Below the pieces are notes generated by a model. The model had not been told where the DNA came from. It made no database searches and worked only from the letters and a program-made list of their open reading frames with translations. From Deltaproteobacteria bacterium (lineage in GTDB: Bacteria > Myxococcota > JACPTQ01), in contig JACPTQ010000050.1 in the NCBI GenBank assembly GCA_016192705.1, forward strand, positions 62,001-126,000: a DNA stretch of 64,000 nucleotides, given 5' to 3'. The first letter of the stretch is position 1; every line of letters begins with the position of its first letter. The position numbers were made by a program, and so were the translations under genes. Positions 15,630-63,168 of the stretch are shown piece by piece.

Positions 15630-17189
15630 ATGAAGCGCCGCGCGGGCCAATTTTCGCTGTCGACCATCATCGGGATAGGGCTATGCGCTGCGTGCAGCGC
15701 CTCGACGCCGGGCGCGGGGACCGTCGAATCGTCGGTTGACGCGGGAGTGGATGCGGGTGCGGGCGCCGATGCGGGTGCGGATGCGGGTGCCGACGCGGAT
15801 GCGGGTGCGGACGCTGGTGCCGATGCCGGCGCGGGTGCGGGTGCCGACGCGGGATACGATGGCGGATACGACGGTGGCTTCGATGGTGGCGACGACGGCG
15901 GCCGCGAATGGCGCGAATGCGACGGCTCGACGCTCATCGAAACTTACGACGGCGGCAACGTCAGCGGGCCGCGTTTGGCCGCGAGCTCAAACGGCGATGT
16001 CCTCGTCGTTTGGGAAAAAGTGACCGATGGACGCACCGACATCTGGGCGAACCGGTTCGCTTACGCGTCGCAATCGTGGGGCGTCGCGCAGCCGATCGAA
16101 TCGTTCAACGCGGGTGGTGCCTCGGAGCCCGAAATCGCCATCGACCCGTTTGGCCGCGGAGTTGCCATCTGGTCGCAAAGTACCGGCACAATCATGCGAG
16201 TTGCCGCGAATCGTTTCGACCCAACGACAGGTTGGGGTGACGCCGGCCTCATCAACTATGACGGCGGTCATGGGCAAGGGCCCAAGGTTGTGCTCGATTC
16301 GATGGGGAACGGCGTTGCAGTTTGGATCCAGCCCCTGAACGCTGATTTGACGCTCGCCTCGCGTTCGCGCCTCTGGAGCGCGCGTTTCCTCGCTGCGGGC
16401 GGTTGGCAGCTTCCGACGCTTGGGGAAAGTACCGACGCTGGAATCGTTGGGTTCCCGACCCTGGCTGGAAACCCGAGCGGGACGGTGGTCGCGGTGTGGG
16501 CTCACCGCATCGAGGCGGATGAATTCGTTTGGGCGAATCGATTCACGCCGGTATTGGGATGGGCGGACGCGGGGCCGATCGAAGACCACGACGCTGGAAA
16601 AGACTCGCAAGCCGTCGCGGTCGACAGCGCGGGCAACGCGATTGTTCTTTGGGCGGAGTACAGCCCGTTCTTTCGGATTTGGTCGAGCCGGTCGGTTGAC
16701 GCGGGACCGTGGTCGGCGCCCCTGTTCGTAAGCCAATCGACGGGCGGCGCGCTGGGACCGAGCGTCGGGGTTGACGACGCCGGGAACGCGCTTGCGGTTT
16801 GGTACGCCGTTGATGGCGGGATCAATTTTCGTGTTTTTGGCAGCGCGTTTATCGCCGACGGCGGTTACTGGCGAACTCCGATCATGCTGAACGATGTTGA
16901 GGCTGGCTATTCGAGCGACCCGCAAATCGCGGTGTATCCAGACGGGATGGGGATTGTTGTTTGGGAGCAGGATGAAACGCCGAACGTCTACCTTTGGTCT
17001 CAAATGTTCAACATCGATATGGTGACGCTGGGAAGTCCGATGCCGGTTCCACGCGTCGCGCCGCCCGACAGCCCTGGGAGCATGATCGACCCGCGAATTG
17101 CGATCAGCGGCGCGGGAATGCCAACCATCGTTTGGGAGCACTGGCCGGCGTCCGGACCGTACTACATCGGAACGAACGTCTGTTATTGA
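15630..17189 (+). CDS. D-A-G-linker lipoprotein with beta-propeller-like repeats
   Basis: The 519-residue product has a start at 15630 after GGGGG-TTTGTT. A short charged N-terminus and hydrophobic core end in LCAAC-S, an imperfect lipobox (Cys at -3 is unusual), so lipidation is probable but not certain. About 55 residues of Asp-Ala-Gly repeats and then Tyr-Asp-Gly-Gly repeats form a flexible linker. The remainder holds about eight repeats of 45-50 residues of the type A-V-W-x(n)-W-x-N-R-F ... W-x-D-A-G-x-I. They are spaced by patterns such as SEPEIAIDPFGRGVAIW and resemble blades of a beta-propeller. The protein is probably surface-exposed; the ligand is unknown. The DNA of the linker is a GCGGGTGCGGATGCG low-complexity repeat that recurs in other places in the window. 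Confidence 0.75.
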   Translation: MKRRAGQFSLSTIIGIGLCAACSASTPGAGTVESSVDAGVDAGAGADAGADAGADADAGADAGADAGAGAGADAGYDGGYDGGFDGGDDGGREWRECDGSTLIETYDGGNVSGPRLAASSNGDVLVVWEKVTDGRTDIWANRFAYASQSWGVAQPIESFNAGGASEPEIAIDPFGRGVAIWSQSTGTIMRVAANRFDPTTGWGDAGLINYDGGHGQGPKVVLDSMGNGVAVWIQPLNADLTLASRSRLWSARFLAAGGWQLPTLGESTDAGIVGFPTLAGNPSGTVVAVWAHRIEADEFVWANRFTPVLGWADAGPIEDHDAGKDSQAVAVDSAGNAIVLWAEYSPFFRIWSSRSVDAGPWSAPLFVSQSTGGALGPSVGVDDAGNALAVWYAVDGGINFRVFGSAFIADGGYWRTPIMLNDVEAGYSSDPQIAVYPDGMGIVVWEQDETPNVYLWSQMFNIDMVTLGSPMPVPRVAPPDSPGSMIDPRIAISGAGMPTIVWEHWPASGPYYIGTNVCY

Positions 17190-20937: not shown

Positions 20938-21042
20938 GAGAAACCACAGAGTCACAGAGGTAGAGAGATCAGAGGAGGAGTTTTCCCAAAGAGAAAGTGC
21001 CTCTCTTCCGAGCTCTAAGACTCAGCCTCTCTGTGGTTTCTC
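20938..21042. repeat. Complete AACCACAGAG-type hairpin repeat element
   Basis: Perfect 14-bp inverted arms GAGAAACCACAGAG (20938-20951) and CTCTGTGGTTTCTC (21029-21042) bound a 105-bp element. Its interior is built of degenerate 8-9-bp units (CACAGAG, GTAGAGAG, ATCAGAGGAGG). It fills the gap between the Cys-rich lipoprotein and the FHA regulator. Single arms of the same sequence occur at five other sites in the window. Confidence 0.8.
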
Positions 21043-23171: not shown

Positions 23172-24140
23172 GTGGAAGTTCTGCTGACTGGAGCGACGGG
23201 TTTTGTCGGGGGTCACGTTGCGGCGGCCCTTCGTGAAGAGGGGCACACCGTGCGGGCGCTTGTGCGACCCGCGTCGTACAAGGTTCCGGCGCAGCGGCGA
23301 CGCGAGGTTGACGCGCTTAGTCGGTTGGGATGCGCGACAGTCGTTGGGGATGCAACGGAGCCCGCCGACCTTGACCGAGCGGCTCGCGGCGTTGACGCCG
23401 TCGTGAACCTCATCGGGATTTTGATCGAGCGCCCGCCGATATCGTTTGACGTCGCTCATATCGAGGTGACGGCGAATCTCGTTCGCGCGGCTGAAATCGC
23501 GGGCGCACGGCGGTTTGTGCAAATGAGCGGAATTGGCGCATCGCCCGAGGCGCCATCGCGTTACCACCAAACGAAAGCTGCGGGCGAGGCGGCGGTGCGA
23601 GCGTCGAAACTCGACTGGACGATCGTGCGGCCGTCGGTCATTGTCGGCGCGGGCGACGGATTCACGAACGGCATCGTGGATCTTGTCGAAACGCCGCTCG
23701 TGACGCCGGTTCCGGGCGATGGGCGAACGCCGCTTCAGCCGGTTGCGGTGCGCGATGTGGCGCGCGCGTTTGTGGCAACGCTTCAGGATGACCGAACCGT
23801 CGGCCAGACGATCGACCTTGTCGGCCCGCAAACTTTCACGTTTCGGCAGGTCGTTCAGATCGTCGGCGCGGCGACTGGGAATAATCAGCCGATATTTCCG
23901 GTGCCGAAAGTTTTTCTCCACGCGGTCGCGTATTTCGCCGAGGCGTTTGCGACGAACCCGGTTGTGACCTCGGATCAACTTCGTATGATGAATGGAATTC
24001 CCATCGTCGATCACGCGCCCTTGCGGACGTTTTTCGATTGGGAGTTTACGGCGTTTGAGGTGGCGCTTCAGGAAACGCTTGCCGCGCGCCGGGCGGGGCT
24101 TCGCAACGCGTCGCTTGGTCAGGATGAGAGAGAGGAGTAA
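23172..24140 (+). CDS. NAD(P)-binding Rossmann-fold epimerase-like protein (NDUFA9-like SDR)
   Basis: The 322-residue product starts with GTG at 23172. The N-terminus MEVLLTGATGFVGGHVAAAL carries the TGxxGxxG dinucleotide motif. Later features (RFVQMSGIGASPE; RYHQTKAAGEAAVRAS; LDWTIVRPSVIVG) match the atypical extended SDR group that includes mitochondrial complex I subunit NDUFA9 and bacterial NAD-dependent epimerases. A Tyr-x3-Lys is present (Y-H-Q-T-K). The substrate is unknown; quinone- or lipid-linked roles have been proposed for the group. Its TAA stop is formed by the start of the next repeat element (GAGTAACCACAGAG). Confidence 0.75.
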   Translation: MEVLLTGATGFVGGHVAAALREEGHTVRALVRPASYKVPAQRRREVDALSRLGCATVVGDATEPADLDRAARGVDAVVNLIGILIERPPISFDVAHIEVTANLVRAAEIAGARRFVQMSGIGASPEAPSRYHQTKAAGEAAVRASKLDWTIVRPSVIVGAGDGFTNGIVDLVETPLVTPVPGDGRTPLQPVAVRDVARAFVATLQDDRTVGQTIDLVGPQTFTFRQVVQIVGAATGNNQPIFPVPKVFLHAVAYFAEAFATNPVVTSDQLRMMNGIPIVDHAPLRTFFDWEFTAFEVALQETLAARRAGLRNASLGQDEREE

Positions 24141-24240
24141 CCACAGAGGCACTGAGGACACAGAGATCGGAGGAGCGGAGAAAAGGGAGAGGAAAGAAGA
24201 AGCGGAAGCGGGTGCGGGAGCGGATGCGGAAGCGGGAGCG
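24126..24240 (+). repeat. AACCACAGAG arm joined to GCGGGTGCGGGAGCGG low-complexity repeat
   Basis: GAGAGAGGAGTAACCACAGAG followed by GCACTGAGGACACAGAGATCGGAGGAG (24126-24175) is nearly identical to 35927-35974. A GGAAAGAAGAAGCGGAAGCG stretch and the hexamer-like GCGGGTGCGGGAGCGGATGCGG run follow to 24240. The element begins inside the stop codon of the epimerase-like gene and ends 24 bp before fadN-like. Confidence 0.75.
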
Positions 24241-29317: not shown

Positions 29318-30034
29318 ATGACGTGTTGGAACTGCGAGCGTGACGCACGCGATGAGGCGGTGTGTGGGTTTTGCGGAAAGCTGCAGCCACTTGCGCGCGA
29401 TGCGGACCATTTCACGGTGATGGGATTTTCGCGACGTTATGCGGTTTTGCGAGACGAGGTGGACACGAGGTTTCGCGAGCTGTCACGGCGGTTTCACCCG
29501 GACCGTTTGGCGCGGGAATCAGCCGAGGAGCGTCGAATCGCACTGCAGCGGACGGTTGCGTTGAACGACGCTTATCGCGTGCTACGGGACGACGTGAAGC
29601 GGGGCGAGTATTTGTTGAAGCTGTGGGGGATCGACGTTGGGGCGGAGAAGTCGGGCCAAGCGAGTGCCATCGGGCTTGGCGGCGGGTTCTTGATGGAGAT
29701 GTTGGAGCGGCGCGAGGCGCTTCTAGAGGCGCGGGCGGCTGGGGATCGCGGGACGGAAGAGCGGCTCTTCGCGGAGGCGCGCGAGGCGCGTGCGGCGGCG
29801 CTGGAACGCGCGGCGGCGGGGTTGGACGAGGAGGAAGAGAAAGGCGATAGGAAAGAAGGCGCCGGACCGGGAGCGGGTGCGGGTGCGGATGCAGGAGCGG
29901 ATGCGGAAACGGGAGCGGTAGCGGTAGCGGGTGCGCTAGCGGGAGAGGGTGCGGGGCGGCTCGGGGAGGTGGCGCGCGAGTTTGCGCGGATTAGATATTA
30001 CGCTCGGTTTTTGGGTGAGGCCGCTGATGACTGA
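29318..30034 (+). CDS. hscB: Fe-S co-chaperone HscB with N-terminal CWxC zinc module and low-complexity insertion
   Basis: The protein has 238 residues; bacterial HscB is normally about 170. The start at 29318 gives [20 protein letters not shown] with Cys3, Cys6, Cys16 and Cys19, the two CxxC pairs that bind zinc in mitochondrial HSC20/HSCB. The J domain follows ([28 protein letters not shown] with the HPD motif), then the three-helix IscU-binding domain. Within that domain an acidic run and a Gly/Ala/Asp-rich stretch of about 40 residues interrupt the sequence before the last helix ([16 protein letters not shown]). It recruits IscU to HscA and stimulates its ATPase. No strong ribosome site precedes the ATG; a longer frame from 29243 overlaps iscA and is less likely. 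Confidence 0.93.
29826..29960 (+). repeat. GCGGGTGCGGATGC low-complexity run inside hscB
   Basis: GAGGAGGAAGAGAAAGGCGATAGGAAAGAAG is followed by about 90 bp of hexamer-like units (GGGAGCGGGTGCGGGTGCGG, GGAGCGGATGCGG, GGAGCGGTAGCGG). The same motif accompanies the repeats at 24126 and 35927 and encodes the D-A-G linkers at 15750-15860 and 38225-38330. Confidence 0.7.
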
Positions 30035-35914: not shown

Positions 35915-35926
35915 CGGGGGCGGGAA

Positions 35927-36036
35927 GAGAGAGGAGTAACCACAGAGACACTGAGAACACAGAGATCGGAGGAGAAGAAACTGCGGGTCGGAAAGAAGAT
36001 GCGGAATCGGTGGCGGGTGCGGGAGCGGAGACGGGT
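35927..36036 (+). repeat. AACCACAGAG arm joined to GCGGGTGCGGGAGCGG repeat
   Basis: GAGAGAGGAGTAACCACAGAG, then ACACTGAGAACACAGAGATCGGAGGAG, then GGAAAGAAGATGCGGAATCGG and GCGGGTGCGGGAGCGGAGACGGG. It is a near copy of 24126-24240, starts 12 bp after the exporter stop, and runs into the stop codon of the next minus-strand gene. Confidence 0.75.
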
Positions 36037-37158: not shown

Positions 37159-38466
37159 TCATTGCTCGCCGTCGACGTCGAACTTGGCGACGAAGATGTC
37201 GAAGTCCCCCGCTCTCGTGTTTCCGTCGAGCACGCCGCTGGTGGCGCCCGTCACGTAAATGTTCCCCCGCACATCGACCGCAACACCGTAACCATAGTCG
37301 TTACTCGCCGTCCCGAAGTGCCGTGTCCACCTCTTCCCACCATCGGTGTCATAATTGGCGAGAAACACATCGCTACCGCCTGCGTTGGCATTTCCGTCGA
37401 TCCCGCCCTCGGTAAAGCCCGTTACATAGATGTTCCCGCTGGCGTGTACCGCGACGCCAAAGCCCCTGTCGGATAACGTCGTCCCGAGTTCCCGGTTCCA
37501 GATCCGCGCCCCGTCGCCACCGTACTTCACAAGGAAAATGTCTTTGCCACCCAACAGCGAATCCCCGAACGGCCAGCCAGAGACATAGCCGGTTACGTAG
37601 ATGTTGCCGTTCGCGTCGACCGCGACGCCGTAACCACGATCTTCATCGTCCCGCCCGAACTGCCGCGTCCAAACTTTTCCACCGTTTCTGTCGTACTTGA
37701 CGAGGAACATGTCCGATCCCCCGGCGCTCGTGATCCCGTCGAGTCCGCCGTAGGTCGTGCCCGCCACGTAAATGTTCCCGCTCAAGTCGACCACCAAGCC
37801 GTACCCGTAGTCGTCTCCGGCCGTTCCAAGCTGCCGCGTCCACCGCTTCCCGCCGTCGCTGTCGTACTTAACGAGGAACATGTCCGACCCCCCCGCGCTC
37901 GTATTCCCGTCGAGAGCGCCGTTCGTAGTGCCCGTAACATAGATGTTCCCGCTCAGGTCGACCGCAACGCCTTGCCCTTCGTCATCCGACGACGTTCCGA
38001 ACTGCCGTGTCCACCGCTTTCCCCCGTCGCCGTCGAACTTGACAAGGAACATGTCCGAGCGCCCGACGTTCGTGTTCCCGTCGAGCCCGCCGAAAGTCGT
38101 GTAGCCCGTTACATAGATGTTTCCGCTCGAATCGACCGCAGCACCCCGCCCAAAGTCGGGGTAGAGCGTCCCAAACTGGCGTTTCCAAACGACCGCCGCC
38201 GGCGTTGCACCGCTGTCCGGCCCCGCATCCGCAACTGATACCGTTCCCGCACCCGCTCCTGCATCCGCCACCGCTCCCGCGTCTGCACGTGCGCCCGAAT
38301 CCGCCACCGCTCCCGTCCCTGCGTCCGTTCCTCCATCTAATAGTCTGCACAAGCTCCCGCAGTCGACTTCTCCGGGGTCGACGTTGGGGCCATCAGCGCA
38401 CGAGAGGCCGGCGAAGCAGCCGAACGACACCACGACCCCAAACGACCTTATTGAAGCCTCTCGCAT
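37159..38466 (-). CDS. SBBP-repeat lipoprotein
   Basis: The 435-residue product has a signal ending FAGLSC-A, a good lipobox. A D-A-G-rich linker (about residues 45-85) is followed by six near-identical repeats of about 53 residues. Their core is of the form W-T-R-Q-F-G-T ... D-Y-G-Y-G-V-A-V-D-x-S-G-N-I-Y-V-T-G ... G-G-S-D-M-F-L-V-K-Y-D-x-D-G-G-K. These are SBBP (seven-bladed beta-propeller-type) repeats, found on exported bacterial surface proteins. The repeats are close enough in DNA sequence to recombine, so copy number may vary between strains. The function is probably adhesive or scaffolding. The upstream region carries a small palindrome and a set of TGCGACT repeats. Confidence 0.88.
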   Translation of the reverse strand: MREASIRSFGVVVSFGCFAGLSCADGPNVDPGEVDCGSLCRLLDGGTDAGTGAVADSGARADAGAVADAGAGAGTVSVADAGPDSGATPAAVVWKRQFGTLYPDFGRGAAVDSSGNIYVTGYTTFGGLDGNTNVGRSDMFLVKFDGDGGKRWTRQFGTSSDDEGQGVAVDLSGNIYVTGTTNGALDGNTSAGGSDMFLVKYDSDGGKRWTRQLGTAGDDYGYGLVVDLSGNIYVAGTTYGGLDGITSAGGSDMFLVKYDRNGGKVWTRQFGRDDEDRGYGVAVDANGNIYVTGYVSGWPFGDSLLGGKDIFLVKYGGDGARIWNRELGTTLSDRGFGVAVHASGNIYVTGFTEGGIDGNANAGGSDVFLANYDTDGGKRWTRHFGTASNDYGYGVAVDVRGNIYVTGATSGVLDGNTRAGDFDIFVAKFDVDGEQ

Positions 38467-57309: not shown

Positions 57310-59226
57310 ATGCGGCTTGGGAGATGGCGCGTCGGTGCAGGGATGGTGCTTCTTGCGGTAGCGTGCGACGGCAAGAAGACGGCGCCGCCTGCAGCCGACG
57401 CCGCGGTTGTTCAATGCGCGACGACGGATGCGGGAACGACGGCATCGGCTGAGGCGCTTGCGGTTGGCACGCGCAGCGACGTTGCGATTTGCGCGAAGGA
57501 GTTTTTTTTCGCGAGCGATTTTGTGGCGGGCGACGTCGTGACCTTGACGCTCGCGTTTTCAAACGTGGCTGGAGATATCGACGTCGCGCTTATCGATCCG
57601 GAAGGAAGCATTATTGCGACTTCCGCCGGGACAGGCGATGGCGAGCAGTTGTCGGCAATCCCCGCGCGCCTCACGGGCCGGTATTTCGTTCGCCTCTATA
57701 ACAAGAACCGGTACACGCTTCGGACTGCGTTCTCGATCACGCTGGCGGTGACGCACGATTCATCGTGCACCGATGACGCGCTCGAACCGAACGACACCGT
57801 CGTGGCGGCGCGCGCCGTTGGAGATGGCGGCGGTGCTTGGTCGGGTCTCGTGCTCTGCGCGTCGAACAAAGACCACTTCCGCGTTGACTTGGACGCGGGC
57901 GATGTCGTGACGGCGACGCTGGCCGCGGACGCGGGGCTCGCGCTCAGCTTGTACGTCGTCGACAGTGCCGCGCCGACGACGCCGTTTGTCGTTGCGCGCG
58001 CGCCGACGGTTGCATACGGTCCGGTCGCGTTTGGCGGCCCTGTGTACTTGATGGTTTCGGCTGATGCGGGTGTCACCGGTGCGTATGACCTCGGAGTCTC
58101 GTGGGTGCGGGCGGATGGCGGTCGACCGGTACGGCTTTCGGGCGTTGTGACGTATGAGCGACAGCTCGTTACGGCCACCGGATACGTGAACCAAGGGTAC
58201 GTCCCAGCTGCGTTTGCGCGTGTTGACGCGGTGTCGGCGGCGACGGGGAAAGCCCTCGCGGAGGTTGCGACGAACGACGCTGGCGCGTTTGAATTCCCGG
58301 AGCTCCTTGTTTTCGGCGACGCCGGCCTGCAGATCCGTGCGCTGGCACAGCGGTTTGAGCCGACGGTGAATTTTTCGGTGCGCGATAATCCGGCTTCCAA
58401 CGCGATCGTCGCGGCGACATCGGCGGTTTACGACGAGACCGCTGTTGGGCCGTCGATTTCGGTGTCGCTTGCGGTCTCGGAGATGTCGGGCGCGGGAGGG
58501 GCGTTTCACCTCTTGTCGCTTGCCTCGCGCGCCGAGGAGTTTGTTCGCGCGGCAACCGGGAAATCGATATCGCCGCTCACGCTCTATTGGACGAAGGGCA
58601 CGAACGCGTACGGCTGCGGCACGTGCTACGTCGACTCAGTCGTCTACGTCGGTGGAACGCCGTCGGACCCCGACGAATACGATGACGCGGTTGTGCTGCA
58701 TGAAATCGGGCACCACGTTGTGCGCGTGCTGTCGCGGGATGACTCGATCGGCGGCGATCACAACGGCTCGAAGACCGACCCCGTGCTGGCGTTTTCTGAA
58801 GGTTGGGCGACGTTTTTCGCGCTCGCCGTGCGGGGCGATCCTGTTTATTACGACTACCGAACGGCCGATGTGCTGGCGGCAAATTTCGAGACGATGGCGG
58901 AGGCGGCGAGCTTTGGGACGGGCTCGGGCGCGCTTGCGGGCGACGTTTCGGAGTGGCTCGTGAGCGCGTTCTTGTGGGATGTGCTCGATGCGCCCGCGGA
59001 TACGGGGGATGGTCTCAACGTCGGCTTCGGTGTCTTGTTTGATCCGCTTGCGAAGTATTTCACGGCGCAGTCGTTCGCGGATCGCGGGGCGGTTGGACGC
59101 GATTTTGTCGACTACCTTGATGGGTGGAGTTGTCGGGCTCTCGGTTCGACGAGTGAGCTGACGGCGCTCATCAGTGCGCGGCAGTTTCCGTACGACTTCG
59201 CGGGACCGACGAGTTGCCCCGAATGA
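57310..59226 (+). CDS. Exported PPC-domain metalloprotease (HExxH) lipoprotein
   Basis: The 638-residue product has a signal ending LLAVAC-D, a clear lipobox. Two bacterial pre-peptidase C-terminal (PPC)-like beta domains follow (FFFASDFVAGDVVTLTLAF ... GRYFVRLYNKN; and CTDDALEPNDTVVAARAV ... KDHFRVDLDAGDVVTATL). A carboxypeptidase-regulatory-like fold comes next (FARVDAVSAATGKALAEVAT). The catalytic part has VLHEIGHHVVRVL (HExxH) with a downstream Glu in AFSEGWATFFAL, a gluzincin-type arrangement. A CGTCY pair precedes it. It is probably a surface or secreted zinc protease; the target is unknown. Confidence 0.82.
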   Translation: MRLGRWRVGAGMVLLAVACDGKKTAPPAADAAVVQCATTDAGTTASAEALAVGTRSDVAICAKEFFFASDFVAGDVVTLTLAFSNVAGDIDVALIDPEGSIIATSAGTGDGEQLSAIPARLTGRYFVRLYNKNRYTLRTAFSITLAVTHDSSCTDDALEPNDTVVAARAVGDGGGAWSGLVLCASNKDHFRVDLDAGDVVTATLAADAGLALSLYVVDSAAPTTPFVVARAPTVAYGPVAFGGPVYLMVSADAGVTGAYDLGVSWVRADGGRPVRLSGVVTYERQLVTATGYVNQGYVPAAFARVDAVSAATGKALAEVATNDAGAFEFPELLVFGDAGLQIRALAQRFEPTVNFSVRDNPASNAIVAATSAVYDETAVGPSISVSLAVSEMSGAGGAFHLLSLASRAEEFVRAATGKSISPLTLYWTKGTNAYGCGTCYVDSVVYVGGTPSDPDEYDDAVVLHEIGHHVVRVLSRDDSIGGDHNGSKTDPVLAFSEGWATFFALAVRGDPVYYDYRTADVLAANFETMAEAASFGTGSGALAGDVSEWLVSAFLWDVLDAPADTGDGLNVGFGVLFDPLAKYFTAQSFADRGAVGRDFVDYLDGWSCRALGSTSELTALISARQFPYDFAGPTSCPE

Positions 59227-59235
59227 GAAAAAACG

Positions 59236-59312
59236 AACCGCCAAGACGCTAAGAGGGCCAAGGTTGAATTTGATGATGTTTCTACTTTGGGGTTCTCTTC
59301 TTCTTGGCGGTT
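59236..59312. repeat. Complete AACCGCCAAG-type hairpin repeat element
   Basis: Inverted 11-bp arms AACCGCCAAGA (59236-59246) and TCTTGGCGGTT (59302-59312) bound a 77-bp element made of 8-9-bp units (GACGCTAAG, AGGGCCAAGG). It fills the space between the convergent metalloprotease and TPR genes and may act as a two-way terminator. Confidence 0.8.
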
Positions 59313-59326
59313 AATCTTGCGATTTG

Positions 59327-60448
59327 TTACAGCACGTCGGCGGCAAGACGTTCGTGGCGCGCGCGGCTCAAGGCTTCGGTGTGCCACGTCTCGGTTGGGA
59401 ATAACGGCGCGGCCTGCGTTGCGACGCGGGCGGCGTTTTCGTAAAACCTGTTTTCGAATTCCCACGTCAGGAGGGCACGCCATGGTTCGGGGTGTGTGGG
59501 CGTGCGGTCGCGGTCGGCGACGAGCAGGGATTGCGCTTCGTCGGTGCGACCGAGCAGCGTTAGGTCGCGGGCGACTTCGAGGGCGATGCGTGCGTCGTTG
59601 GGGCGGAGGCGGCGCGCGTGTGCGCAAACGCGCAGGGCTTCCTCCGTCGGTTTGACGTGGCGGGCCATTTCACAAACATAGAAGGGGACGTCGGGTTCGT
59701 GCGGGACGTTGCGATAAAGGGTTTGGTAGGTTTCGTAGGCGAGCGAAAGATTGTTCGCGTGGAGCGCGATTGTTGCGAGCTCCCAGTAGGGGCGGACGTC
59801 GTTGGGCGTGGCGGCGATCTCGCGCTGGATGACCCGCGCGGCGGCGGTAAAGCGGCGTTCAGCCGTGAAGGTGCGCGCGATTTCGCGTTCGAGGTATCTG
59901 TACTGCGGGAGTTTGCGGCGAAGCGATGCGAGGAAAAAACGTGCGAGCCAGGGCCGGCCCTCGAGGGTTTCGAGGCGGGCGAGCATGCGGGCGCTCCAAA
60001 CGAAATCGGTGCGCCAGGTTTTCGAGAGCCAGTGGCGAATCGCGGTTGGGTTGTTCTGTTCGATCGCAGCGGCAGCAAGGAGGCGTTCGCGGGTTGGGTG
60101 AAGGTGAGACAAACGCAAAGACGCGGAGACGCCAAGAGAACAGGTTTCTGACTTTGCGGCTTTGCCCCTTTGCGACTTTGCGTTGAAATCCCCTGCGGGT
60201 GCGGGCATCGGTTCGCCGATGCGGGCGAGCACACGCGCGAGGAGCGCGGTGGCGCAAGGATCGCCGGCGCGTGCGGCGGGTTCGAGCGCGAGGCGGACGG
60301 GCCAGAGGTCGTCGATGTCGGTCCAGGGCGCATGGGCGATTTGCGCGGCGCGATCAAATGACGACGGGCGCATTGCGAGGACAACAATGGCGCCGACGGC
60401 GAAAACCACCGCGCCAACGCGACGATGAGAAAAAGGATTTGCTGTCAT
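59327..60448 (-). CDS. Membrane-anchored TPR protein with repeat-encoded insertion
   Basis: The 373-residue product has one N-terminal transmembrane helix (VGAVVFAVGAIVVLAM). From about residue 140 there are TPR-like helical pairs (AARVIQREIAATPNDVRPYW; LSLAYETYQTLYRNVPHEPD; EALRVCAHARRLRPNDARIA). Residues about 88-113 (NAKSQRGKAAKSETCSLGV...) break the pattern. They are encoded by an AACGCAAAG hairpin element at 60112-60184 inserted in frame. The protein is probably a periplasm-facing scaffold. The stop is 15 bp from the AACCGCCAAG element, and the start is 129 bp from alaS in divergent orientation. Confidence 0.75.
   Translation of the reverse strand: MTANPFSHRRVGAVVFAVGAIVVLAMRPSSFDRAAQIAHAPWTDIDDLWPVRLALEPAARAGDPCATALLARVLARIGEPMPAPAGDFNAKSQRGKAAKSETCSLGVSASLRLSHLHPTRERLLAAAAIEQNNPTAIRHWLSKTWRTDFVWSARMLARLETLEGRPWLARFFLASLRRKLPQYRYLEREIARTFTAERRFTAAARVIQREIAATPNDVRPYWELATIALHANNLSLAYETYQTLYRNVPHEPDVPFYVCEMARHVKPTEEALRVCAHARRLRPNDARIALEVARDLTLLGRTDEAQSLLVADRDRTPTHPEPWRALLTWEFENRFYENAARVATQAAPLFPTETWHTEALSRARHERLAADVL
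60112..60184. repeat. AACGCAAAG-type hairpin repeat element within a TPR gene
   Basis: Arms AACGCAAAG (60112-60120) and CTTTGCGTT (60176-60184) flank degenerate units (ACGCGGAG, ACGCCAAG, GCGGCTTTGC, CCCTTTGCGA). The element lies inside the coding region of the minus-strand TPR gene and keeps its frame. Confidence 0.8.
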
Positions 60449-60576
60449 GTAACGATCTTTCGTGACCTACAACCGCAACCAGCAACATGCTTATTCCGAG
60501 TCCGGCGCGTGGACTCCATATCCCGCGCGGGCGCGCGCCTTGACGAAGCCCCGCTCGCAATCGGAGACTGAAAGGA

Positions 60577-63168
60577 ATGAAATCGTCAAGCCAAATTCGC
60601 GAGTCGTTTCTTTCGTTTTTTGAGTCGCGCGGCCACCGGCGCGTCAAATCGAGTGGGCTCATTCCGCAAGGCGACGCGACGTTGCTGTTCACGAACGCCG
60701 GCATGGTGCCGTTCAAGGATTTTTTCACCGGCGCCGTGCGCAGCGATTTTTCGCGCGCGACGACGTCGCAAAAATGCATGCGCGTTTCCGGGAAGCACAA
60801 TGACCTTGAAAACGTCGGACGCACGCCGCGTCACCACACGTTTTTTGAGATGCTCGGGAACTTTTCGTTCGGCGATTATTTCAAGGCCGAAGCGATCGAT
60901 TTTGCGTGGGAGTTTCTCACGAAGACGGTCGCGCTTCCGAAGGAGCGCCTCTGGATAACGGTGTTTCGCGAAGACGACGAGGCCGAGGCGCTTTGGAAGG
61001 CGCGCGCGAATGTGTCGGCGGATCGCATCGTGCGGCTTGGCGAAGCGGACAATTTTTGGGCGATGGGCGACACGGGGCCTTGTGGGCCGTGCTCTGAGAT
61101 TCACATCGATCAAGGCGAAGCGGCTGGTTGTGGAAGACCGAGCTGCACGTTTGGCTGCGAATGTGGCCGCTACATGGAGCTTTGGAACCTCGTCTTCATG
61201 CAGTTTGAGCGCGACGCCAAGGGCGCAATGACGAAGTTGCCGAAGCCGTCGATCGACACGGGCGCCGGCCTCGAGCGGCTTGCGGGCGTCCTGCAAGGAA
61301 CGACGTCGAACTACGGAAGCGACTTGTTTGGCGGCCTTATTGAGACGGCGAGCGCGCTCGCGAAAAAGGCGTACGGCAAAAACGACGAGGACGATGTTTC
61401 GATGCGCGTCATCGCCGACCATGCGCGCGCGACGGCGTTTTTGGTTGCGGACGGCGTGCTCCCGCAAAACGAGGGGCGCGGCTATGTGCTTCGTCGCGTG
61501 ATGCGGCGTGCGATTCGGCATGGCGAGCGGCTTGGGCTCAAGGATCTTTTCTTTCACGCCGTGTGTGGACGCGTCGTCGACGAGATGCGTTCGGCATACC
61601 CGGAGCTCGATGGGGCGCGTGCGCTCATCGACAAAGTCGCGCGGCAAGAAGAGGAAGGGTTTCGTCGAACGCTGGCAAGCGGGTGCGCGTTGTTGCAGCA
61701 GGAGATTGCGAAAGGCGGCAAGGCGATTGCGGGCGCGGTCGCGTTCAAGCTGTACGACACGTTTGGGTTTCCGCTCGATCTGACCGAAGTGATTGCGGGT
61801 GAAGCGGGCATGGCCGTTGATCGCGCGGGATTCGATGCTCATATGGAAGAGCAGCGGGGACGGAGCACGTTCAAAGGTGAGGCGAATGCGGTCGCTGTCG
61901 GGGGTGCGTGGAAATCGGCGACGAGCCCGTCGGGGAGCCGATTTTTGGGCTACGAGGCGACGAAGGTGCGGGCGCGGGTGCTTGACGCGATCGAGTCGAA
62001 TGGGCGGGTCGAATTCACGTGCGACCAAACGCCGTTTTACGCAGAGTCCGGCGGGCAGATCGGCGATGCGGGCGAGGCGCGCGGGGCGCGTGGCGTTTTG
62101 AGGGTCTCCGACACCAAACGCGTGGGCGAGCGGATTGTACATATCGGCGTCGGTTCGGTTGCGGCTGGCGACGACGTCGAACTCATCGTCGACGAAGCGC
62201 GGCGCGACGCGATTCGCCGCAACCACAGCGCGACGCACCTTGCGCATTGGGCGCTCCGCTCGGTGCTGGGCGACCACGTGAAGCAGGCCGGGTCGCTCGT
62301 TGCGCCCGATCGGCTGCGGTTTGACTTCAGCCATTTTCAGCCGCTGACGTCCGACGAAATCGCGCGCGTCGAAGACCTCGTCAACGCGCGCGTCGTGGCC
62401 AATTTTGAAGTCGGAACGCGCGTGTCGACTTACGATGCGGCCGTGAAAGACGGCGTCATCGCGTTCTTTGGTGAAAAATACGGGAACGAGGTGCGGGTCG
62501 TTCAGGTGTCGCCGGAATCGCGCGAGCTCTGCGGCGGGACGCATTGCCGGCGGTCGGGGGATATTGGCTTCTTCAAGATTGTGAGCGAAGAGGGGATCGC
62601 GGCGGGCGTGCGGCGCATCGAGGCCGTGACGGGAATGGGCGCGGTGGCGTTTGTTCGCGGGCTTGAGACGACGCTCAAGCGGGCGGCCGGCGAGCTCAAG
62701 TCGGCGCCGGCGGAAATCGTTGAGCGGGTTGGAAAGTTGCGTGAGCGCGAGGCGAAGCTCGTGAAGGAGATTGAGGAACTTACGCGGAAGATGGCGGGTG
62801 GCCAGGCGCGTGACCTTGTCGCGGACGCGGTCGACGCGGGTGGCGTGCGCGTCATCGCGACGCGCGCGGAGATCGCGGACCCCAAGGGGATGCGGGATTT
62901 CGCGGATGGGCTCAAGGAGCGCTTGAAGAGCGGCGTTATTGTGCTCGGCGCGGTGAACGACGGGAAAGCGGTGCTTCTCGCGGCGGTTACGCCCGACCTT
63001 GTGGGGCGCGTGCATGCGGGCAAGCTCATGGGCGAACTCTGTGCGATCGTGGGTGGACGCGGCGGCGGCAAGCCCGATATGGCGCAAGGGGGCGGCAGCG
63101 ATGTCGCGGCGCTCGATGCGGCGCTTGCGAGTGTGGCTGAGAAGGTTCGCAAGGCGGTCGGCGCTTGA
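60577..63168 (+). CDS. alaS: Alanyl-tRNA synthetase
   Basis: The 863-residue product starts at 60577 behind GAAAGGA. The class II catalytic core has SFLSFFESRGHRRVKSSGL, TTSQKCMRVSGKHNDLENVG and GDTGPCGPCSEI. The editing domain shows RRNHSATHLAHWALR (HxxxH) and RELCGGTHCRRSGDIGFF (Cys and His of the zinc site). The C-terminal C-Ala domain ends GGRGGGKPDMAQGGG, as in the family. It charges tRNA-Ala and edits mischarged Ser and Gly. Length and domain order are complete. The PilZ gene overlaps its stop, an unusual operon neighbour. Confidence 0.98.
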   Translation: MKSSSQIRESFLSFFESRGHRRVKSSGLIPQGDATLLFTNAGMVPFKDFFTGAVRSDFSRATTSQKCMRVSGKHNDLENVGRTPRHHTFFEMLGNFSFGDYFKAEAIDFAWEFLTKTVALPKERLWITVFREDDEAEALWKARANVSADRIVRLGEADNFWAMGDTGPCGPCSEIHIDQGEAAGCGRPSCTFGCECGRYMELWNLVFMQFERDAKGAMTKLPKPSIDTGAGLERLAGVLQGTTSNYGSDLFGGLIETASALAKKAYGKNDEDDVSMRVIADHARATAFLVADGVLPQNEGRGYVLRRVMRRAIRHGERLGLKDLFFHAVCGRVVDEMRSAYPELDGARALIDKVARQEEEGFRRTLASGCALLQQEIAKGGKAIAGAVAFKLYDTFGFPLDLTEVIAGEAGMAVDRAGFDAHMEEQRGRSTFKGEANAVAVGGAWKSATSPSGSRFLGYEATKVRARVLDAIESNGRVEFTCDQTPFYAESGGQIGDAGEARGARGVLRVSDTKRVGERIVHIGVGSVAAGDDVELIVDEARRDAIRRNHSATHLAHWALRSVLGDHVKQAGSLVAPDRLRFDFSHFQPLTSDEIARVEDLVNARVVANFEVGTRVSTYDAAVKDGVIAFFGEKYGNEVRVVQVSPESRELCGGTHCRRSGDIGFFKIVSEEGIAAGVRRIEAVTGMGAVAFVRGLETTLKRAAGELKSAPAEIVERVGKLREREAKLVKEIEELTRKMAGGQARDLVADAVDAGGVRVIATRAEIADPKGMRDFADGLKERLKSGVIVLGAVNDGKAVLLAAVTPDLVGRVHAGKLMGELCAIVGGRGGGKPDMAQGGGSDVAALDAALASVAEKVRKAVGA

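Follow-up and report, generated by a model that had tools for sequence, protein, structure and literature searches.

A dispersed hairpin repeat read in frame inside a TPR gene and other genes of a Myxococcota genome

The window analysed here is a 64,000-nucleotide stretch of contig JACPTQ010000050.1 (positions 62,001 to 126,000 of the forward strand, GenBank assembly GCA_016192705.1) from a Deltaproteobacteria bacterium of the phylum Myxococcota. Within it lies a gene for a TPR protein in which a hairpin-like DNA segment is read in frame between the N-terminal part and the TPRs. The locus raises the question of whether this segment belongs to the protein or to a repeat that has entered it. The reading favoured here, with a probability of about 0.8, is that the segment is a copy of a dispersed MITE-like hairpin repeat which is tolerated as an in-frame linker, resembling the Rickettsia palindromic elements (RPEs) but in an unrelated lineage. 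The genome size of 5.2 Mb, the 62% GC of the window and the presence of kinase-PEGA and DUF4388 genes point to a host other than a rickettsia, and these two kinds of gene also suggest Myxococcota.

The element within the TPR gene

A sequence-only reading of the window had described a hairpin repeat translated inside the TPR gene. The in-frame reading was borne out: the 373-residue ORF at 59327-60448 (minus strand) stays open across the element, where its translation is DFNAKSQRGKAAKSETCSLGVSASLRL (Table 1). The repeat was also present at the coordinates first given, 60112-60184, but these cover the hairpin core only. Seed copies of the element align over 98 positions with no internal gaps; the conserved unit is thus wider than the 73 nt reported earlier and occupies approximately 60102-60199. 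The score of 60199-60102 against model R1 (cmsearch; Table 1) is that of a sequence used to build the model, the window copy being among R1's own 11 sequences. The CCCGCA hexamers on the 5' side overlap the first positions of R1.

Table 1. Features of the TPR locus, in window positions
Feature	Positions	Strand	Remarks
Host gene, 373 aa, with N-terminal hydrophobic segment and TPRs	59327..60448	minus	element at residues ~84-115
Whole conserved element, 98 R1 positions	60102..60199	minus	read as PAGDFNAKSQRGKAAKSETCSLGVSASLRLSH; 104.5 bits, E 2.9e-29
Hairpin core, ends AACGCAAAG and CTTTGCGTT	60112..60184	minus	arms of ~8-nt units like NCGCNAAG
Two CCCGCA hexamers (Pro-Ala)	60194..60205	minus	element's 5' side; flank type common to copies

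The word AACGCAAAG is found at exactly two places in the window, 60112-60120 (plus) and 60176-60184 (minus), which are the two ends of the element; for a 9-nt word this alone is within chance (1.08 expected, and two or more in 29 of 100 shuffles). The inverted ends AACGCAAAG/CTTTGCGTT of the window copy are imperfect in the consensus of copies. RNA folding of 60100-60200 gave a z of -2.7, with 3 of 200 shuffles equally or more stable. Covariation for the hairpin pairing (registers 96-111) revealed no compensatory excess over shuffles, and no Rfam match to window 58900-60700 was obtained at E up to 1. A related hairpin of the spacer type (AACCGCCAAG...CTTGGCGGTT) is located at 59236-59312, in the gap where the gene at 57310-59226 and the TPR gene converge.

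Pfam TPR matches in the host protein start near residue 190, with TPR_19 above its cut-off. A single-sequence AlphaFold2 model (mean pLDDT 56) places helices at residues 28-77, ahead of the element segment, and has pLDDT values of 27-34 over the segment itself; the low-confidence stretch, 86-195, exceeds the element, so little is told by the model. Homologues of the TPR gene were weak, matching parts of residues 178-360 (from 178 on) in 8 of 38 relatives, and a close one was not found among these; six peptide patterns likewise revealed no relatives of the gene in the named genome collection. Because only weak homologues exist, we infer the insertion in the TPR gene itself from the repeat family. 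When the TPR protein was searched against its own genome (tblastn), 34 matches were obtained, its own locus included, and the other 33 all lay over the element region.

Copies in the genome, their hosts and their reading frames

At least 87 non-overlapping copies were identified by nhmmer in the window and 68 further stretches fetched from the same genome. This number is a lower bound, and it is biased towards one subfamily, as the 11 model seeds were found through the peptide. A 21-nt pattern allowing two mismatches matched 94 times in the genome, versus 12 times when read backwards; with at most one mismatch it matched 71 times, compared with a single match in each of five out of 194 further genomes from the phylum. 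The covariance model gave at least 146 matches, many places being counted on both strands, with 150 of 4442 candidates scored. One exact pattern searched in viral contigs gave no match. Two contigs (the ends of L083 and L065; G000 C17 and C13) stop inside a copy, as expected where repeats break an assembly.

The copies code as well as fill spacers, as had been proposed from the window: 62 of the 87 lie wholly inside gene calls, 21 lie outside and four partly overlap a gene end. The gene calls come from the author's own codon-usage caller, and some host assignments may be wrong. The 62 in-gene copies are distributed over 56 host genes, 50 with one copy and six with two. These hosts are mostly unrelated, since similarity among the element-masked proteins is confined to the kinase, sulfatase and FHA groups and to two further pairs. 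Of the 41 hosts scanned against Pfam, 31 had a family match and 10 had none; conserved enzymes among the hosts include MTHFR and glutamate synthase. Genes are neither avoided nor sought, as 58 of 87 copies (67%) lie at least 20 residues inside a gene, compared with 65% of random windows. Two other sets of places compared as spacer controls were not clean, since gene calls also contain 5 of 17 places of a second repeat family starting AACCACAGAG and 11 of 16 places with a loose AACCGC word. The length of the element is nearly constant in genes: the exact model length is found in 55 of 62 in-gene copies versus 13 of 25 others, two of these 25 being cut by contig ends.

The second family is represented in the window at 20942-21038, 24139, 28870, 35938 and 52123. 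Three of these overlap a gene call at its beginning or its end, 24139 is inside a call near its start and 35938 is in a spacer. Over 110 nt, 24127-24236 and 35926-36035 match at 81%, and both stretches continue into hexamer-like arrays.

In element coordinates, 41 of the 62 in-gene copies are read in frame +0, 17 in frame -2 and four in other frames. All 62 frames used are stop-free within the element, and other frames are often stop-free too. If insertion were neutral and blind to frame, with any frame accepted and stop codons as the only filter, 26.3 copies would be expected in +0 or -2 by random choice of a stop-free frame; 58 of 62 were observed, and the maximum in 20,000 simulations was 40. 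Similarly, among the 40 copies in which +0 and at least one of +1 and -0 are open, +0 is used in 35. Frame-blind insertion agrees with the lack of depletion of copies from genes relative to random windows and with the absence of peptide-level selection described below. In its pure form it is refuted by the frame simulation, and it survives if a hexamer target, not selection, sets the frame; overall it is considered unlikely. The bias persists when the 11 seeds are left out: one frame is shared by 32 of the 34 same-strand copies, and one by 17 of the 19 on the opposite strand. When codon usage was calculated for the 240-nt flanks independently of ORF calls, the two sides agreed on the best frame in 29 of the 43 same-strand copies, in 13 of the 19 on the opposite strand and in 9 of the 25 others. 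For the 42 in-gene copies with agreeing flanks the frame was the expected one in 38, and another frame or strand in four. Some host calls are therefore weak.

The hexamers flanking the element probably set its reading frame. On either side of the element the consensus consists of decaying CCCGCN hexamers, alike for gene and non-gene copies, and strict arrays (at least three CCNGCN within 72 nt) adjoin 12 of 87 copies, compared with 0.4% of random 72-nt windows. The strict word CCCGCNCCCGCNCCCGC matched 283 times in the genome, overlaps counted, versus 10 for a reversed control; among the first 100 places listed, some are on contigs without any listed copy. In fetched sequence, all 14 in-gene arrays of at least four CCNGCN encode Pro-Ala (+0) or Ala-Gly (-2), and this holds for all six that lie away from any element; one further array is outside genes. 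The array frames +0 and -2 are the two frames of the element. In the flanks of the 43 same-strand copies, Ala and Pro together make up 45% and 42% of residues, compared with 21% elsewhere in the hosts. Elsewhere in the window, long GC-rich hexamer-like arrays (GCGGGTGCGGAT...) occur without a hairpin at 15745-15862, 29849-29964 and 38215-38337, and five direct repeats at an exact spacing of 171 nt, which match the reference copy at 61-74%, occupy 37177-38142.

That many proteins use a single peptide in a single frame, that its length in genes is nearly constant and that several hosts are membrane, signalling or periplasmic proteins would also be expected of a functional module, such as a linker or binding motif, spread and kept by selection, with the DNA likeness following from the peptide. 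Substitutions were counted in 66 of the 87 copies (39 in genes on the same strand, 14 in genes on the opposite strand and 13 not in genes); the weak or odd copies L080, L081, L082, L084, L085 and L086 and those not exactly 98 nt long were left out. Among codons with a single change in the 39 same-strand copies, 69 of 255 (0.27) were synonymous, against a neutral expectation of 0.24-0.29. The 14 opposite-strand copies, which use the second frame, were likewise neutral in their own frame (25 of 106). Outside gene calls, the 13 copies (16 of 79 synonymous) are about as conserved as those in genes. Purifying selection on the peptide was not found, the synonymous share being at the neutral level. 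It is the DNA word structure that is conserved, together with length where the copies are in genes. A functional module also has no obvious use in MTHFR or glutamate synthase; this explanation is already disfavoured and is judged improbable.

The repeat reading can be assembled into a sequence of steps. A hairpin repeat, with a core of about 72 nt in a unit of about 98 nt, has multiplied in this genome. It may land in, or move with, (CCCGCN)n arrays, which genes would tolerate only where they encode linkers of Pro-Ala (sense) or Ala-Gly (antisense). The array would then fix the frame, and the constant length of the element would preserve the frame downstream, allowing the element to persist as a hydrophilic and probably disordered linker. 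In the TPR protein it would add length to the linker that joins the N-terminal part to the later TPRs, presumably with little or no function of its own.

Empty sites in relatives of the host proteins

The earlier interpretation would fall if all homologues shared the segment. The sequences of MTHFR and glutamate synthase answer this point for the repeat family. In MTHFR, a net 23 residues of the protein from this genome are absent from 14 of 14 relatives' enzymes; these 14 matches came from a search of 23 relatives, the remaining nine having no MTHFR at E 1e-20. Three PDB alignments shown for MTHFR split at the place of the element, and a second MTHFR was not found in the genome. Glutamate synthase carries two copies, and both segments are missing in all 16 stretches from 9 relative genomes (homologues at E 1e-50 in 9 of 18 relatives). 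The segments are missing in the relatives' proteins, and are therefore insertions in the MTHFR and glutamate synthase of this genome. Comparable breaks were observed in two other hosts when compared with PDB sequences. An aminotransferase is interrupted at the element by a net of about 30 residues in the two alignments shown, and a molybdopterin oxidoreductase by about 58 residues, including an Ala-Gly array, in one alignment that covers both sides. An MmgE/PrpD host had no PDB match at E 1e-5.

These comparisons also bear on the proposal that each segment is an ancestral, fast-evolving linker of its host which converged to a simple repeat, nothing having been inserted. Such an origin would account for the Ala/Pro-rich flanks, and the TPR gene has no close relatives for comparison. 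However, homologues of conserved enzymes are without the segments, the same DNA is also found outside gene calls, and the median nearest-neighbour identity among 66 full-length copies is 0.91. The proposal is refuted for MTHFR and glutamate synthase and, taken over all hosts, is very improbable.

Known repeats and related hairpins in other genomes

The closest known systems appear to be the RPEs, with which the Wolbachia palindromic elements are grouped here by name. RPEs are described as inserted in frame in unrelated genes, where they encode a conserved peptide and are apparently tolerated (PMC10969869, PMC6649704), and nearly half of the first 44 RPEs are placed within ORFs (2024 review, PMC10969869). 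The repeat described here resembles them in that one repeat is in frame in many unrelated genes (62 copies in 56 gene calls) and in that homologues lack the segment (MTHFR, 14 of 14; glutamate synthase, 9 genomes). The likeness is one of behaviour. The element is about 98 nt long, whereas RPEs are about 150 bp. The element also differs in being built of units of about 8 nt, in being set in (CCCGCN)n arrays, and in having related hairpins in Sorangium and a Schlesneria MAG that are mostly in spacers or at gene edges.

MITEs such as ERIC, BOX and QMITE are short, non-autonomous elements with inverted-repeat ends, and some of them contain ORFs and form in-frame fusions with genes (PMC10969869). 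Terminal inverted repeats are shared by the hairpins described here, with AACGCAAAG/CTTTGCGTT at the ends of the window copy and CTAGTTCCGC/GCGGAACTAG at those of a Sorangium copy. Unlike MITEs, no parent transposon and no target duplication were found for the repeat in its own genome, and 62 of 87 copies are in gene calls. REPs, characterized as extragenic and 20-40 bp long (PMC3733652), are similar as dispersed palindromes of high copy number. In contrast to the REP/RAYT system, the Y1_Tnp (RAYT) family had 0 matches at E 1e-3 in this genome, which is 96.65% complete; a reverse transcriptase (RVT_1) was also not found at E 1e-3. PARCELs (palindromic amphipathic repeat coding elements), which are coding DNA with dyad symmetry (PMC2996958), share that property with the element but consist of tandem 25-residue amphipathic repeats, whereas 50 of 56 hosts here have one copy and six have two. 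A published account of this repeat was not found among the papers listed in searches by sequence words, judged by titles and the beginnings of abstracts, and no related paper on palindromic in-frame repeats in Myxococcota was found, judged by title.

The repeat offers an RPE-like case in an unrelated lineage, with 62 copies in gene calls and some in core enzymes. Its insertions could be used to examine the tolerance of proteins for new linkers and the change of a spacer repeat into coding sequence.

Related hairpins were found when the named genomes were scanned with a peptide profile: Sorangium cellulosum So0157-2 has two such loci, and a Schlesneria MAG has one. Model R1 gave at least 145 matches in Sorangium and at least 25 in the Schlesneria MAG, both strands being counted and 150 candidates scored in each. 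The 38 Sorangium matches in 36 stretches, of which two matches are half elements, comprise 18 in intergenic DNA, 14 that overlap a gene end or are close to one, and six inside calls; of nine copies in the Schlesneria MAG, seven are intergenic and two overlap gene ends. The share of copies inside genes is 58 of 87 in the genome studied here versus 6 of 38 in Sorangium (Fisher p 1.7e-7), the copies having been chosen by differing searches. The core is 69, 77 or 85 nt long in 12 of 16 Sorangium copies and 71, 78, 79 or 81 nt in four; length there therefore changes largely in 8-nt steps. Tentatively, these observations could represent a hairpin that has adapted to life inside proteins outside the Rickettsiales and independently of Rickettsia. 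The spacer form, as in Sorangium, would vary largely in 8-nt steps and the coding form would preserve frame; (CCCGCN)n arrays would serve as landing pads, encoding Pro-Ala or Ala-Gly linkers, and a selfish element and a simple repeat would together spread such linkers across the proteome.

One Sorangium copy, L170, has an empty counterpart in the sister genome L194, which retains both flanks and lacks the element. Among the other four of the five counterparts fetched, two have both flanks with different DNA between them and two match one side. At the filled site, CTAGTTCCGC and GCGGAACTAG form the boundaries and another CTAG lies upstream, making three CTAGs in all versus one when empty, and a GC-rich stretch is alike on both sides. 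In the genome with the empty site, the matches to the two flanks share 24 nt, so a target duplication of 4 nt or of about 24 nt is compatible with the site. The CTAG presumably resembles the YTAR targets of IS5-group elements. Such a boundary is not evident in the genome studied here, where five CTAGs lie within 150 nt of the 87 copies. At positions 1453-1635 of L170 (Sorangium So0157-2 genome), the hairpin is nested, as the inner part, within a larger palindrome whose ends are CTAGTTCCGC.
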